Below, piece by piece: positions 56,773 to 61,145 of a stretch of 64,000 nucleotides of DNA. The first letter of the stretch is position 1. Each line of letters opens with the position of its first letter. The stretch lies in NCBI RefSeq assembly GCF_001908235.1, contig NZ_LGHK01000077.1, positions 1 through 64,000 on the forward strand, given 5' to 3'. The position numbers were made by a program, and so were the translations under genes. Source of the DNA: Bradyrhizobium sp. NAS96.2. Lineage in GTDB: Bacteria; Pseudomonadota; Alphaproteobacteria; Rhizobiales; Xanthobacteraceae. A model generated the notes under the pieces. The model was not told the origin of the DNA, made no database searches, and saw only the letters and a program-made list of their open reading frames with translations.

Positions 56773-57456
56773 CTACAGGTTCGCCAGGCCGCATTCGACG
56801 GCCAGGCGGACCAACTGGGCGTCGGTCCGCATGCCGGTCTTGGCCTTGATCAGGTAGTGGTAGTTCTGCACGGTCTTGGTGCTGAGGTTGAGGTTGGCTG
56901 CGATCTGCTCCTTGGTGCTGCCGGCAGCGAACTGCCGGAGGATTTCGATCTCCCGCTCGCCGAGCTGGTCGAGCGCCGATTGGGTCGGCACCAGGCTCTC
57001 CAGCGCGAGCACCCGCGCGACGTCGTCGCTCATCGCATGCTCGCCGCGCGCCACCGAGCGGATCGCCGCGATCAGCTCTGCCGGCTCGCTGCCCTTGGTG
57101 ACGAAGCCGGAGGCGCCGGCGCCGAACGCCGCCTTCACCTGGCCGGCCTCGCTGTGCATGCTGAAGACCAGGATGCGGGCGTCGGGATCGCGCGCGCGGA
57201 TGTTGCGGATCGCCTCCAGCCCGCTGGCACCCGGCATCGAGATGTCCATCACCACCACATCTGGCCCGTGCGACTTGAAGGCCCGGTAGGCGTTGGCGGC
57301 GTTGTCGGCTTCGGCGACCACGCTGAAATCGTCCTGATGCTCGAGCACGCGCCGATAGCCCTGGCGGACGACCGGATGATCGTCCACCAGCAGGATCGAG
57401 ATTCCCCGAGTCTTCACTGCTGTCATCTTCACGGCTGTCATCTTCGCGGTCGTCAT
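56773..57456 (-). CDS. LuxR-type response regulator
   Basis: 227 residues. Receiver domain with acidic pair LLVDDHP, phospho-acceptor Asp71 (VVVMDISMPG) and Lys in FVTKGS, then a NarL-type helix-turn-helix LGEREIEILRQFAAG, AANLNLSTKTVQNYHYLIKAK. The gene begins with three 15-bp near repeats (MTTAK-MTAVK-MTAVK), giving three possible ATGs: 57456, 57441, 57426. It starts 1 base after the sensor kinase stop (TGAGATG), so translation is coupled. Confidence 0.93.
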   Translation of the reverse strand: MTTAKMTAVKMTAVKTRGISILLVDDHPVVRQGYRRVLEHQDDFSVVAEADNAANAYRAFKSHGPDVVVMDISMPGASGLEAIRNIRARDPDARILVFSMHSEAGQVKAAFGAGASGFVTKGSEPAELIAAIRSVARGEHAMSDDVARVLALESLVPTQSALDQLGEREIEILRQFAAGSTKEQIAANLNLSTKTVQNYHYLIKAKTGMRTDAQLVRLAVECGLANL

Positions 57457-57457
57457 C

Positions 57458-58828
57458 TCAGGCGGCGAGCGGGATCGTTGCGGCGACGGAGAGGCCGCGG
57501 CTGGCGCGCGCGATCGACAGCGAACCGCCAAGCGCGGCGACGCGCTCGCTGACGCCGGTGAGGCCGAAGCCCGCCGACTGCGCCACCTTGGCGGCATCGC
57601 CGCCGCCGTCATCCTCGACCCGCACCAGCAGCGCGTTCTCGGTTCCACTGCGCCGTTCGATCCGCAGCACGATCTCGCGCGCCGAGCTGTGGCGCAGCGC
57701 GTTGGTCAGGCATTCCTGCGCGACCCGATAGGCCGTTACCGCAACCGTGCCGCTGATGTCGGCGAGGTCGCCCTGCAAATCGAGCTGGATCATCGGCTGC
57801 GTCGTGCGCGACCGCCAGCTGGCGACGAGGTCGACCAGGCTTGCCTCAAGCCCGAGCTCCTCGGCCGGCGGATGGCGCAGCCGGTTCAACGTGTCGCGCA
57901 GGCAGGCGATGATGCGGCGCGTGGCCTGCGAGATCATCCGTGCGTCCTGCGCAATTTCGGTCCCGGCGGCGTATTTGTCGCCGGCGCTCGCCTCGATCGT
58001 GTTGGCGAAGGCCAGGATCGCGGTGAGATTCTGGCCGAACTCGTCATGCAGCTCGCGAGCCAGCGCGCGGCGTTCGTCGCTGCGGATTTCGAGCAGGCGC
58101 CGCGTCAGCGTCGTGCGTTCCTCCTCGGCCTGTGCGAGGCGATCGCCGAGATCGCCGACGGCGCGTCCGATCATGGCAAGCTCCATCGAGCGCACGCGCG
58201 GCAATGGCGTGCGGTACTCGCCGTCGGCCATGCGGCGCAGCGCCGACACGATCGAGTGGGCGGGCGCCAGCGTATGTGCGATCGCAAGCGAAGCGAGCAG
58301 CGCGATGGCGAGCGCCATCAGCAGCGCGACATGGATGTTGTTCAGAATGTGCTGCCAGGCGAGCGCAATCGCGGCGTCCGGATCGGCGATGGCGCGGACG
58401 GTTCCCGCGGTCGCGGCGCGGGCGCTGATTGGCCGCTCGACGGTGGCGTGCTCGCCGAGCACCGCCTGCACGGTGGCCGCGAACCAGCGCGGCGGCGCCT
58501 TGCCGATCCCCTTGCTCTGGCCGCAGAGCGGCTTCTCGAAGGCGCCGGCGGGTTCGAACTGCACGCAGATCCCCGGCGCGATCAGGCCCATGGTTTCGAT
58601 GGTGCGCCAGTCCGGCGCCGGCAGCAGTTGCTCGCGCATCCGGTTGCTGCGCAGCAGCAATTCGCGCCAATACAGCGCCTCGAGCGACTGCGAGACCCGC
58701 GCAGCGGAGGCATCGGTGGCGCGATCGACGCTGCGATAGGCGTCGATCGTGGCCCAAACGGTGGCTGCGCCAAGGCATAGCGCGACGATGACGAGCAGGC
58801 GGGCGACCAGTTGAAGCACGAGGCGCAT
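57458..58828 (-). CDS. NarX-type sensor histidine kinase
   Basis: 456 residues. TM1 near the N-terminus, a ~130-residue periplasmic sensor with two cysteines (PGICVQF and PLCGQSKG), TM2 (VALLMALAIALLASLAIAHT), HAMP, a HisKA_3 dimerisation helix with the phospho-His in LARELHDEFGQNL and an ATPase domain (ECLTNALRHSSA, GFGLTGVSERVAALGG). Signal unknown. GGAG lies 8 bases before ATG 58828. Forms an operon with the downstream regulator. Confidence 0.92.
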   Translation of the reverse strand: MRLVLQLVARLLVIVALCLGAATVWATIDAYRSVDRATDASAARVSQSLEALYWRELLLRSNRMREQLLPAPDWRTIETMGLIAPGICVQFEPAGAFEKPLCGQSKGIGKAPPRWFAATVQAVLGEHATVERPISARAATAGTVRAIADPDAAIALAWQHILNNIHVALLMALAIALLASLAIAHTLAPAHSIVSALRRMADGEYRTPLPRVRSMELAMIGRAVGDLGDRLAQAEEERTTLTRRLLEIRSDERRALARELHDEFGQNLTAILAFANTIEASAGDKYAAGTEIAQDARMISQATRRIIACLRDTLNRLRHPPAEELGLEASLVDLVASWRSRTTQPMIQLDLQGDLADISGTVAVTAYRVAQECLTNALRHSSAREIVLRIERRSGTENALLVRVEDDGGGDAAKVAQSAGFGLTGVSERVAALGGSLSIARASRGLSVAATIPLAA

Positions 58829-59078
58829 GCGATCACTCCACGGCCGGAGCATGAGCCGAACGAGCGTGATGCGGCTTCATGCTGAAACGGGCGACGTGAT
58901 GGTAACAGCGCCGCTGTTCCCCGCCAATCGCAAGCGTGCCAGGCTATGCAGGTCGGGAAAATTGCCCGACGAAACTTGGGCAGAAGTCTTTGGACGGCGC
59001 CCGCCGGCTCTGCTCTAACCATCAGCGAGGTTCTCACGCAGGCCTCGCGGAACAACCGTTACAGGGAGCTAGCGCAGC

Positions 59079-59858
59079 ATGGACGCCAAGGTCGAGGCTG
59101 CGGCCGCACCGGCCGGCACGGACGCGGCGGAGCGCAGCGTCCTGCTGCTCTGGATGATCTTCACCGGCCTTTCGATCTTCGCTGCCTTCCTGCTGTGGCG
59201 CTACGGGCTGATCCGCCTGATGGTCAGTTCCGACCGCACCTACATTTCCAGCGTCATCGCCGTGCTCTACATCGTCACCTGCATCCATTGCTTCTGGCGG
59301 ACGCGGGCGATCGCGCGGGAAGGCGAGGTGGCGCGGTCCTGCCGCACCATCCTCGCCGCTCCCGATGGCGCCAAGGCGCTCGCTGCTGATGCGCGCGGCC
59401 TGCCGCGTGGTCTCGTCACCGATCACATCAAGAGCCTGGTGCAGAAGGCCGACGCGCAGGCCAAGGGCCGCATCGACCAGACCCTGCTGTTGCGGACGCT
59501 AGCCGACCGGCTGCGCGGCTCGAACGGTTTCGGCGCCTTCGTCTCCGACACGCTGATGAAGCTCGGCCTGCTCGGCACCATCATCGGCTTCATCATCATG
59601 CTGGCGCCGATCGCCTCGCTCGATGCCGCCGACAAGGTCGCGATGAAATCGTCGATGGGCCTGATGAGCGACGGCATGGCGGTTGCGATGTATACGACGC
59701 TGGCCGGGTTGATCGGGTCGATCCTGGTCCGCATCCAGTATTACATGCTGGATTCCGCGACCCAGCGGGTGTTCTCCGATGCGGTCGTGCTGACCGAGAC
59801 GCACGTCACGCCGGCCCTCGAACGTCGCCTTGATACGTCCCTTGGTACGCCGCCATGA
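59079..59858 (+). CDS. ExbB/TolQ/MotA-like proton-channel protein
   Basis: 259 residues, first gene of a three-gene module. Four hydrophobic segments: two near the N-terminus (LLLWMIFTGLSIFAAFLLW, YISSVIAVLYIVTCIHC) and two in the MotA/TolQ/ExbB domain (FVSDTLMKLGLLGTIIGFII with LAPIAS, and MAVAMYTTLAGLIGSILVR), whose conserved small-residue and Thr positions line the proton path. Relatives drive TonB, TolA or flagellar motors with proton force. ATG 59079 with GGGAG about 10 bases upstream. Overlaps the next gene by ATGA. Confidence 0.85.
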   Translation: MDAKVEAAAAPAGTDAAERSVLLLWMIFTGLSIFAAFLLWRYGLIRLMVSSDRTYISSVIAVLYIVTCIHCFWRTRAIAREGEVARSCRTILAAPDGAKALAADARGLPRGLVTDHIKSLVQKADAQAKGRIDQTLLLRTLADRLRGSNGFGAFVSDTLMKLGLLGTIIGFIIMLAPIASLDAADKVAMKSSMGLMSDGMAVAMYTTLAGLIGSILVRIQYYMLDSATQRVFSDAVVLTETHVTPALERRLDTSLGTPP

Positions 59859-60544
59859 TGGACGAGTTCGGGCTCTATCCGCGCGAGGAACCGTTCGATC
59901 CGCTCGGCGTCATGCTGTTCAAGGCGCTGCAGGTGATCGCCTTCCTGTTCTTCCTGGCGCTGCTTGCGGTGTCGCCGGACTCCAAGGACGGCAAGATCGA
60001 ATCCAAGGCGGAGTTCATCATCACGATGGACTGGCCCGACAACCACCCCGACGATCTCGACCTGTTCGTGCAGGACCCGGCCGGTAATATCGCCTGGTAC
60101 CGGCATCGCGAGGCCGGTTTCCTGACGCTCGACCGCGACGATCGCGGCGGCGCCAACGACTTCATCGTGGTCAACGGCAAGAAGATTGCATCGCCGATCC
60201 GCGAGGAGATCGTCACCTTGCGCGGCGTCGTCGCCGGCGAATACACCGTCAACGTCTCGCACTTCCAGGCGACGACCGGCGAGCCGGTGCAGGCGAACGT
60301 CAAGGTGCAGAAGCTCAATCCGACGGCGCAGGTGATCTTCGACGACAAGCTGACCGTCGATCACACCGGCGACGAGAAGACCGCGGTCCGGTTTCGTCTC
60401 GACGCCGAGGGCAAGGTGATCAACGTCGACCGGCGGCCGAAATCGCTGCTCGAGACCTTCCGCAGCAGCTGGCGCAACGGCGCCGACCTCGATCCGAACA
60501 CCGGCGTTCCGAGATCCGGCGTCAGGGTGCTCCGCAATGATTAG
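59855..60544 (+). CDS. Single-TM envelope protein, possible ExbD/TolR-like partner
   Basis: 229 residues, family not recognised. One TM helix at ~20-42 (VMLFKALQVIAFLFFLALLA) directly preceded by PFDPLG, so an Asp sits at its cytoplasmic edge, reminiscent of the PFIDxxLxLL start of ExbD/TolR. The rest is periplasmic: DDLDLFVQDPAGNIAWYR and GEYTVNVSHFQATTGEPVQ look like a beta-sandwich of the DUF2135/pre-peptidase kind. No ExbD domain. Overlaps the ExbB-like gene by 4 bp and the next by 8 bp. Confidence 0.75.
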   Translation: MMDEFGLYPREEPFDPLGVMLFKALQVIAFLFFLALLAVSPDSKDGKIESKAEFIITMDWPDNHPDDLDLFVQDPAGNIAWYRHREAGFLTLDRDDRGGANDFIVVNGKKIASPIREEIVTLRGVVAGEYTVNVSHFQATTGEPVQANVKVQKLNPTAQVIFDDKLTVDHTGDEKTAVRFRLDAEGKVINVDRRPKSLLETFRSSWRNGADLDPNTGVPRSGVRVLRND

Positions 60545-61145
60545 CTTGCAGTCAGTGATCCTCACCATTGCGGTCGCCTACGCAGTGATGGGTGCGCTGC
60601 TCTTGATCGTGCTGGTCTATGCGCGGCTGCACTGGTCGTTGAAGGCGGTCGTCATCGTCGTGACCAGCGCCTTCTATTTCGTCAGCTTCGGCGGGATGCG
60701 CGGCCTGCTCGGCTGGGCCTCCGCGGAGAAGCTGCCGGCGAATTTCAAGCTGCTGTCGACGCGGATCGTGGAGCCGCATTCGCTGGAGGGCGATCCGGGT
60801 TCGATCTATCTCTGGGTCGAGGAGCTCGACGAGGACAACCGGCCGAGCGCCGTGCCGCGCGCCTTCCGCATTCCCTACAGCGACGCCTTGGCCGAGCAGA
60901 CCCACACCGCCGACAACGAGATCAAGGCCGGGCATCCGCAAGGTGGGCGGGCGGCGGATTTCGGCGGCGGCGACGGCACCATCATGGATTTCGTCAGGGA
61001 GTACATCACGCCGAAGACGATCGTGGAGACATCAGGCGGCGATTCCACCACGGGGACGTTCGTGGCCCCGCCGGCGGGCGCGCAGGGATCGGTCTTCACG
61101 CCGCTGCCGCCGCCCCGGATGCCGCCCAAGGACGAGCAACAGTAA
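60537..61145 (+). CDS. Membrane protein of unknown function, third gene of the ExbB-like module
   Basis: 202 residues, not recognised. Two TM helices (SVILTIAVAYAVMGALLLIV, SLKAVVIVVTSAFYFVSFGG), a soluble mid-region with IYLWVEELDEDNRPSAVPRA and YSDALAEQTHTAD, and a disordered Pro-rich tail (TPLPPPRMPPKDEQQ). ATG 60537 overlaps the preceding gene by 8 bp, so all three proteins are translationally coupled. Probably part of one inner-membrane complex, by gene arrangement. Confidence 0.72.
   Translation: MISLQSVILTIAVAYAVMGALLLIVLVYARLHWSLKAVVIVVTSAFYFVSFGGMRGLLGWASAEKLPANFKLLSTRIVEPHSLEGDPGSIYLWVEELDEDNRPSAVPRAFRIPYSDALAEQTHTADNEIKAGHPQGGRAADFGGGDGTIMDFVREYITPKTIVETSGGDSTTGTFVAPPAGAQGSVFTPLPPPRMPPKDEQQ

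Follow-up and report, generated by a model that had tools for sequence, protein, structure and literature searches.

A stretch of 64,000 nucleotides from Bradyrhizobium sp. NAS96.2 (contig NZ_LGHK01000077.1; called the window below) carries, at positions 59079-61145 of the plus strand, three overlapping genes that we refer to as P1, P2 and P3. We consider it slightly better than an even bet (about 0.55) that together they encode a single ion-driven inner-membrane complex of the 5:2 type, in which the periplasmic domain of the axle has been exchanged. Flagella, gliding, nutrient uptake, upkeep of the outer membrane and phage defence all run on motors of this type, whose axle Asp is held to be essential. 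P1 would assemble as a pentamer around a dimer of P2, and the resulting 5:2 complex would be driven by ions. This reading draws on the homology of P1 to MotA, PomA and TolQ (weakly also to ZorA and ExbB), the conservation of its threonines, the synteny of the three genes, the pattern of Asp residues in P2 and the predicted fold.

The three genes are a real conserved unit across bacteria and phages. Their arrangement goes beyond chance, since order and strand are kept in both, and pairwise distances within P1, P2 and P3 vary together (r 0.67-0.84 over 167 loci, against at most 0.089 in 200 permutations). The coordinates confirmed the overlaps of 4 base pairs (bp) between P1 and P2 and of 8 bp between P2 and P3 that an earlier reading of the sequence, here called the original prediction, had pointed out. 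The order P1-P2-P3 on one strand was kept in 77 of 80 genome contigs and in 28 of 29 and 75 of 80 viral loci from two IMG/VR scans, i.e. in 103 of 109. All three genes also lay on one strand in 92 of 97 further loci (some genomes counted twice), and 18 of 20 longer stretches showed the same order. The loci were collected by P2, and ExbB-like genes without P2 are outside the survey. Within it, apart from loci truncated at a contig end, the ExbB-like gene was almost always accompanied by both partners, as had been anticipated.

We found P2 in 31 of 36 genomes of the same genus. The original prediction had named conservation of the three-gene order as a check, and the order is indeed kept in the loci counted above. 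In the family, P2 is carried unevenly, by 28 of 198 genomes from 10 of 47 genera. The counts were 63 of 385 genomes for the class, where the last rows are weak, domain-only matches, and 25 of 398 for the phylum, where nine are weak matches in long proteins. Searching the named genome contigs returned at least 484 relatives among 595 stretches. The best 80, which were used here, come from Gammaproteobacteria (for example Thiothrix, Thiodiazotropha, Methylohalomonas and Plasticicumulans) and uncultured Alphaproteobacteria. A tblastn search with P2 hit 27 phage records, where a RefSeq entry and its GenBank copy count as two; all are from Rhizobium or Sinorhizobium phages, at 28-43% identity. Seven loci from named phages were fetched, among them that of 16-3, a cultured, temperate rhizobiophage, and profiles found a small P1 before and P3 after P2 in all seven. 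In 16-3-like phages, small or homing-endonuclease genes are interspersed between the module genes; annotated endonuclease genes stand there in two 16-3-like rhizobiophages (L004 and L038). The single protein P0002 as query found no relatives in viral contigs, and alignments were needed. With these, two scans yielded 109 IMG/VR loci (29, and the best 80 of 110), which contain 82 distinct P2 segments and some contigs twice.

By its sequence, P1 belongs to the MotA/TolQ/ExbB family, as originally predicted. The window protein matches the Pfam family PF01618 (MotA_ExbB) with an E-value of 5.8e-9 and 36.2 bits, the curated cut-off being 22.9, and it is one of 71 among 73 members of the P1 alignment that do so at E <= 0.01. 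A profile of 73 sequences found MotA (1.1e-5), PomA (1.2e-5) and TolQ (9.2e-5) in the PDB, and more weakly ZorA (0.044) and ExbB (0.052). Hydropathy showed four peaks, at residues 30, 65, 167 and 208; MotA likewise has four hydrophobic segments. The conserved threonines of the last two PF01618-type helices are present as T167 and T207 (Table 1). Viral P1 proteins are shorter, with a median matched length of 156.5 amino acids (aa) as compared to 245 aa in genome contigs, and the alignment places most of the shortening in the loop between hydrophobic segments two and three.

The two partners are of a different kind. Window P2 and P3 fall into no convincing family in Pfam, PHROG, NCBIfam (searched with the window's P1, P2 and P3 only) or PADLOC. 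In PHROGs, window P2 matched phrog_1735 alone, at E 0.012, and four phage P2s, two P1s and two P3s had no match at 0.01. We found no curated family name for either protein, though the family is large. The claim that the partners are not ExbD proteins held up: PF02472 (ExbD/TolR) is absent from window P2 and P3 at E <= 10 and from the families listed among relatives (25 of 46 for 86 P2s, 25 of 29 for 84 P3s). These searches thus gave no sign of a concealed ExbD domain in either partner. PF02472 occurs elsewhere in 69 of 70 P2-positive genomes, the sole miss being a genome (G567) that is 79% complete, and the window genome has two matches, both on other contigs. The module is therefore an addition to Tol and Ton, and we rejected the idea that it replaces either of them.

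P2 has a single hydrophobic peak. The original prediction described a single helix with an Asp at its cytoplasmic edge, in the motif PFDPLG, as the counterpart of the ExbD Asp. There is indeed one helix, and the motif occupies residues 13-18, but Asp15 does not stand in the ExbD/TolR Asp column, which in the window protein holds Val19. Most of the family begins this helix with F-x-D-L-L-F-N, judging from the aligned P2s. Among 249 non-redundant P2s, a set that leaves aside nine long domain-only proteins and rows gapped at this position, column 19 is D in 187, V in 58 and A in four. The check for a conserved Asp has a split outcome, with column 19 conserved in the family and Asp15 in the window's own subtype. 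All but two of the 249 rows have D19 or D15, and D19 is found in 7 of 7 named phages and in 80 of 81 IMG/VR rows. When P2 was aligned by hhalign with 23 ExbD/TolR sequences from P2-positive genomes, Asp fell on Asp, and Val19 of the window, not Asp15, lay under the ExbD Asp; the match is weak, with 14 columns, a probability of 4.5% and an E-value of 0.009.

The window subtype is marked by a lysine at position 23. All 60 non-redundant K23-type proteins have D15 and none has D19. Asp15 is thus real and fixed in this lineage, and it lies one helical turn before the family Asp column. A tree of P1 and P3 implies that the Lys23 type arose by two changes. The first accounts for a clade of 27 (support 0.976) and the second for L187, whose sister L188 has the canonical motif (parent support 0.874). 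Both origins involve the loss of D19 and the gain of K23 and Q26, and V or A at 19, K23 and Q26 are common to 59 of 59 K-type rows. The lineage of the window seems to have rebuilt the charged face of the P2 helix. Among the listed P1 columns that might compensate for this, F151 is the only one that L187, L191 and the main K clade have in common and that L188 lacks. L191 itself, a metagenome-assembled genome (MAG) contig titled Klebsiella pneumoniae, has a module 94-97% identical to that of the gammaproteobacterial MAG L187, and the title probably reflects a mislabelled bin.

It could be argued that the V19/K23 subtype is a structural relic that is no longer ion-driven, since the canonical Asp is missing in 60 of 60 K23 proteins. 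We regard this as decidedly unlikely. Asp15 is kept in the same 60 proteins, the consensus of the main K clade retains the P1 pore threonines, and the module is conserved across the genus. Moreover, the second branch shows the same charge change, which suggests selection for a changed function.

The original prediction had also placed a beta-type domain in P2. AlphaFold2 (86 sequences; mean predicted local distance difference test score, pLDDT, 88.2) modelled a helix at residues 16-38 followed by such a domain at residues 54-192, which contains DDLDLFVQDPAG and consists of beta structure with one C-terminal helix. VIA-align, run on Foldseek candidates, placed the model next to chains named TerD (3ibz, Z 11.8, root-mean-square deviation 4.5, 144 aligned; 2qz7, 9.9; 2kxt, 9.6) and to 9a6r_B (10.3), 2qng (10.2, unknown function) and 7jtk_A (9.8), with the next row at 6.3, where a best Z of 7 to 8 is common for models that have no clear match. 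The predicted fold is thus closest to TerD, a placement to which sequence lends no support. Compared by eye, W60, DxD (67/69), RDD (94-96) and E118 of P2 may be the counterpart of the conserved TerD residues. PF02342 (TerD) was matched by 0 of 60 relatives, and we rejected membership in the TerD family by sequence, as a comparison with a 12-sequence profile was negative. We also disregarded the top PDB rows of Foldseek, leukocidins and spike proteins with TM values of 0.1-0.2. An alpha/beta vWA axle domain is not what the model of P2 contains. Weak matches to DUF2135 (PF09906) occurred in 22 of 86 P2 members at E <= 1, the best at 0.0012, and L115 reached 13.3 bits, below the cut-off of 22.

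In BFVD, four matches to the P2 model were found at E <= 0.001, including S0A5K4 of Cellulophaga phage phi4:1 (3.3e-6) and I7JBZ3 of Campylobacter phage CP21 (3.5e-4). P2-like beta domains also occur inside long open frames of about 400-1150 aa (L106-L114); P1 and P3 were not found within the stretches examined there.

P3 was expected to be a two-helix protein with a Pro-rich tail, and this agrees with what we found: two hydrophobic peaks, predicted helices at residues 4-28 and 33-57 and a model (mean pLDDT 79.8) with a helical hairpin, a small alpha/beta domain and a low-confidence Pro-rich tail. A fold search with P3 gave no Z >= 8 among the top 999 Foldseek candidates, the best row being eIF5A at 6.5, and neither TonB nor TolA was among the matches listed. 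Scattered weak Pfam matches were seen among the families listed (DUF6057 in 7 of 84, DUF4131 in 6 of 84), and one member matched TrAA12 at 3.7e-07. The N-terminal flank of P2 carries a net positive charge across 86 rows. The distribution of charge in the two proteins would put the P2 N-terminus and the P3 turn in the cytoplasm and hence the soluble domain of P3 in the periplasm; the P2 beta domain would lie there as well.

Taken together, the machine may work as follows. P1, whose homology is observed, would form a ring, probably of five subunits. The P2 helices would traverse it as a dimer, with a carboxylate turned toward the conserved threonines of the ring, and the inward flow of ions would drive ring and axle relative to each other. 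In place of an ExbD/TolR domain the axle would have a beta-sandwich resembling that of TerD. The conserved acidic cluster of this domain might, by analogy, bind Ca2+ or some other periplasmic ligand and thereby engage the wall or a partner in the outer membrane. P3, with its hairpin and with a soluble domain and flexible tail predicted to lie in the periplasm, may be a dedicated third subunit that relays motion or a conformational change, much as TolA does for TolQR and TonB for ExbBD. In the window lineage Asp19 would have been lost, Asp15 kept and Lys23 and Gln26 gained, and with the axle face rebuilt in this way the ion step there would have to differ or use Asp15. Since phages have the same gene arrangement, with a shortened P1, the machine probably also has a use during infection.

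Several points weigh against this reading. Adjacency of genes is no proof that their products touch, and the neighbours of the module vary by clade, also in 20 further stretches. The order has exceptions in three of 80 genome loci and six of 109 viral loci. Eight of these nine are cut by a contig end, and in the ninth (L301) we read a diverged P1-like frame upstream. Of the two longer stretches that depart from the order, one (L356) is cut by its contig end, and the other, from the alphaproteobacterial genome G271, contains a rearranged module P1-P3-P2 (L355:4133-5984). L071 and L072 have a P2-like sequence whose partners were not found, and L070 has P3 only. The P2-ExbD profile match is as short and weak as given above, and the window subtype has V19 in place of the canonical Asp, which could mean that its ion drive is changed or absent. 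The second Lys23 branch amounts to one lineage, given that L191 is 94-97% like L187, and recombination of the helix may be an alternative to a second origin. As for the fold, Foldseek found nothing in the PDB for the P2 model at E <= 0.001, the VIA-align scores have the background already mentioned, hhalign with 12 TerD sequences gave a probability of 0.6 and no profile match, and TerD was not among the Pfam matches listed (best 25 of 46 families) for 86 P2 members. Binding of Ca2+ by the acidic cluster is argued by analogy.

Compared with known systems, the module is most readily set beside ExbBD and TolQR. It shares with them the family of the ring protein, the threonines, a single-helix partner (in canonical P2s with an Asp that probably stands near its cytoplasmic end) and the adjacency of the genes. 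It differs in that the periplasmic domain of P2 has no PF02472 match, the P3 hairpin has no match to the TonB or TolA families and the window subtype has no Asp at the canonical column. MotA and PomA are the best PDB sequence matches of P1; window P2, however, has no Pfam match to an OmpA-like wall-binding domain as found in MotAB/PomAB. Any likeness to the TerD family (PF02342) would lie in the predicted fold of P2 and, compared by eye, in the order of the acidic residues.

The original prediction called the module undescribed. Our literature searches found no description of a P1-P2-P3 module, nor is it described in the available parts of a MotAB/GIT phylogeny (PMC12505986), or of a review of 5:2 motors (PMC9389320), but two of its ingredients are in print. 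TolQ-like motors with vWA axles that bear a proton-binding Asp, and to which no TolR or ExbD belongs, have been proposed (Williams-Jones et al. 2025, PMC12204202). These TPH-vWA pairs resemble the present module in having a TolQ-like ring gene and a non-ExbD axle with an Asp. As described there, their axles have a vWA fold and mostly form heterologous pairs. The present module instead has a single P2 with a predicted TerD-like domain of beta structure, has P3 in addition and is carried by phages, which the available text on the vWA axles does not mention. Chronic phages of Lentisphaerae from the deep sea have been described with an ExbB-annotated gene, regarded there as potentially auxiliary (PMC11361711, 2024). 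By that description it shares with P1 the MotA/TolQ/ExbB-family annotation in phage genomes and is set apart as a single gene, an energizer of TonB, with no axle or third gene mentioned in the available text. Measured against these sources, as far as their available text goes, what appears new is the whole module in phages, the moved Asp and the other axle head, while a TolQ-like motor with a non-ExbD Asp axle (vWA) and an ExbB annotation in phages were already known.

The occurrence in phages raises the question of whether the module is a weapon, that is, a Zorya-like defence or superinfection-exclusion device that phages carry and share with bacteria and that disturbs the membrane when another phage attacks. 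Like ZorAB, it pairs a MotA-family ring gene with a partner gene, P1 weakly matches ZorA models (PADLOC, 9.1e-6), and phage carriage is substantial, with 27 Rhizobium/Sinorhizobium records (duplicates counted) and 109 IMG/VR loci. However, window P2 and P3 have no PADLOC match, so no ZorB-like partner is recognised, and no Zorya effector genes adjoin the window module. P1 also lacks the long tail of ZorA; the matched ZorA models span 420-1063 positions. Zorya itself was therefore rejected on the basis of P2, P3 and the neighbours. The module is moreover carried by 31 of 36 same-genus genomes, stands beside a histidine kinase in 44 of 55 genomes of the family and occurs in genomes of about 1-1.4 Mb, which resembles a resident trait more than a mobile defence island, and the largest neighbour cluster spans 29 loci. 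We therefore judge a role in warfare between phages very unlikely.

Table 1. Positions in the window of the module genes, the residues and domains discussed in the text, and the adjoining regulatory genes.
Feature	Position	Strand	Remarks
P1	59079..59858	+	259 aa; MotA/TolQ/ExbB-family protein, likely ring subunit
P1 Asp52	59232..59234	+	start of hydrophobic segment 2; D in 240/246 non-redundant rows
P1 Thr167 (GLLGTIIGF)	59577..59579	+	T in 237/246 rows; candidate pore-lining Thr, role by analogy with ExbB/TolQ/MotA
P1 Thr207 (YTTLAGL)	59697..59699	+	T in 245/246 rows; candidate second pore-lining Thr, role by analogy
P2	59855..60544	+	229 aa; one-helix protein with TerD-like beta domain (predicted), likely axle
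P2 Asp15 (Asp of PFDPLG)	59897..59899	+	D in 60/60 K23-type proteins
P2 membrane helix	59900..59968	+	residues 16-38, AlphaFold2 model
P2 Val19	59909..59911	+	family's conserved Asp column; under the ExbD/TolR Asp in a weak hhalign alignment
P2 Lys23	59921..59923	+	inside the membrane helix; Asn in most of the family
P2 beta domain	60014..60430	+	residues 54-192; near-invariant W60, D67, D69, D95, D96, E118
P3	60537..61145	+	202 aa; two-helix hairpin, small alpha/beta domain, low-confidence Pro-rich tail; likely accessory subunit or transducer
Sensor histidine kinase (HisKA_3)	57458..58852	-	divergent; possible regulator; Pfam
REC-LuxR response regulator	56773..57648	-	downstream of the kinase; Pfam; start of the open reading frame not settled

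Pfam identifies three neighbours of the module in the window, namely the histidine kinase, the response regulator and a TetR protein. Of 55 genomes checked in the same family, 44 have the N-terminal part of the kinase next to the module, a count from which short flanks may hide some, and the divergent two-component system probably controls the operon in the window's family. Within about 3 kb of the module, neighbour-cluster profiles on the 80 genome contigs found genes of envelope type, namely a YkuD L,D-transpeptidase in 39, a DUF3108-like protein in 32 (its Pfam score is under the cut-off) and a vWA-FHA gene in 27, which fits the preferred reading; DUF302 was found in 31. By clustering, the vWA-FHA gene lies downstream in 22 genome loci. 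In nine loci (L118, L120, L121, L122, L125, L127, L129, L133 and L136) L,D-transpeptidase and DUF302 genes, the module and a vWA-TM-FHA gene follow one another on one strand, likely as a six-gene operon.

These neighbours are also what a sensor or gated channel might have. The TerD-like domain of P2 would then sense Ca2+ or envelope stress and gate an ion flow through P1, and P3, the kinase and the vWA-FHA protein would relay the signal; no force would be produced. The predicted fold, the near-invariant acidic residues, the divergent kinase in 44 of 55 genomes and the vWA-FHA gene (22 clustered loci, 27 of 80 by profile) are all consistent with such a function, and Klebsiella TerD is reported to bind Ca2+ (PMC8123226). 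However, the credible PDB relatives of P1 are motor proteins of the flagellar, Tol, Ton and Zorya systems, and the vWA-FHA and kinase neighbours are confined to certain clades. We are inclined to doubt this alternative.

The surroundings in phages differ from one group to another. Of the 109 viral loci, 19, with 17 distinct P2 segments among them, encode SbmA/BacA near the module, 16 downstream and three upstream. Loci with such a gene include L202, L207, L211, L226, L229 and L253, and in the last of these the gene matches PF05992 at 9e-133. ClpS and Hsp20 genes were seen close to some of the SbmA/BacA-carrying viral modules when the sequence was read by eye. The available text of an SbmA paper (PMC12003926) mentions neither phage nor virus. 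In 16-3, TM3_3_14B and X2_25 (L001, L004, L038) a gene annotated as a trypsin-like peptidase precedes P1, either immediately or one gene away, and lysozyme and spanin-like genes, labelled by eye, lie upstream in one phage group (clusters 19 and 20, 10 loci each). From such neighbours one might conclude that the phage version acts in lysis, in breaking down the envelope or, together with SbmA/BacA, in taking up peptides, and that the bacterial version is related and differently used. Yet each of these neighbours is found in a minority, two Pootjesviridae phages have the module between gyrase and sigma-factor genes, and Pfam assigns no spanin family to the spanin-like gene. This explanation appears unlikely to us.

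The preferred reading of an ion-driven 5:2-type complex can tentatively be widened, although we would put this below an even chance: the module may represent a separate and widespread class of ion-driven envelope machine that Proteobacteria have in common with their phages. Its axle head would resemble TerD and probably bind Ca2+, it would have a dedicated third subunit, and its carboxylate for ion carriage, supposedly indispensable, would have been moved by one helical turn twice, a lysine being added each time. If true, these lineages would be a natural experiment on the ion-coupling site, and the natural variants make it directly testable how ions are carried by the axle. The phage versions would, to our knowledge, be the first complete ring-plus-axle module of such a kind in phages. 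The carriers include RL38JI and RL2RES, which have been described as virulent (PMC7067960), as well as 16-3, and one may ask why a virus should come with a membrane motor of its own.

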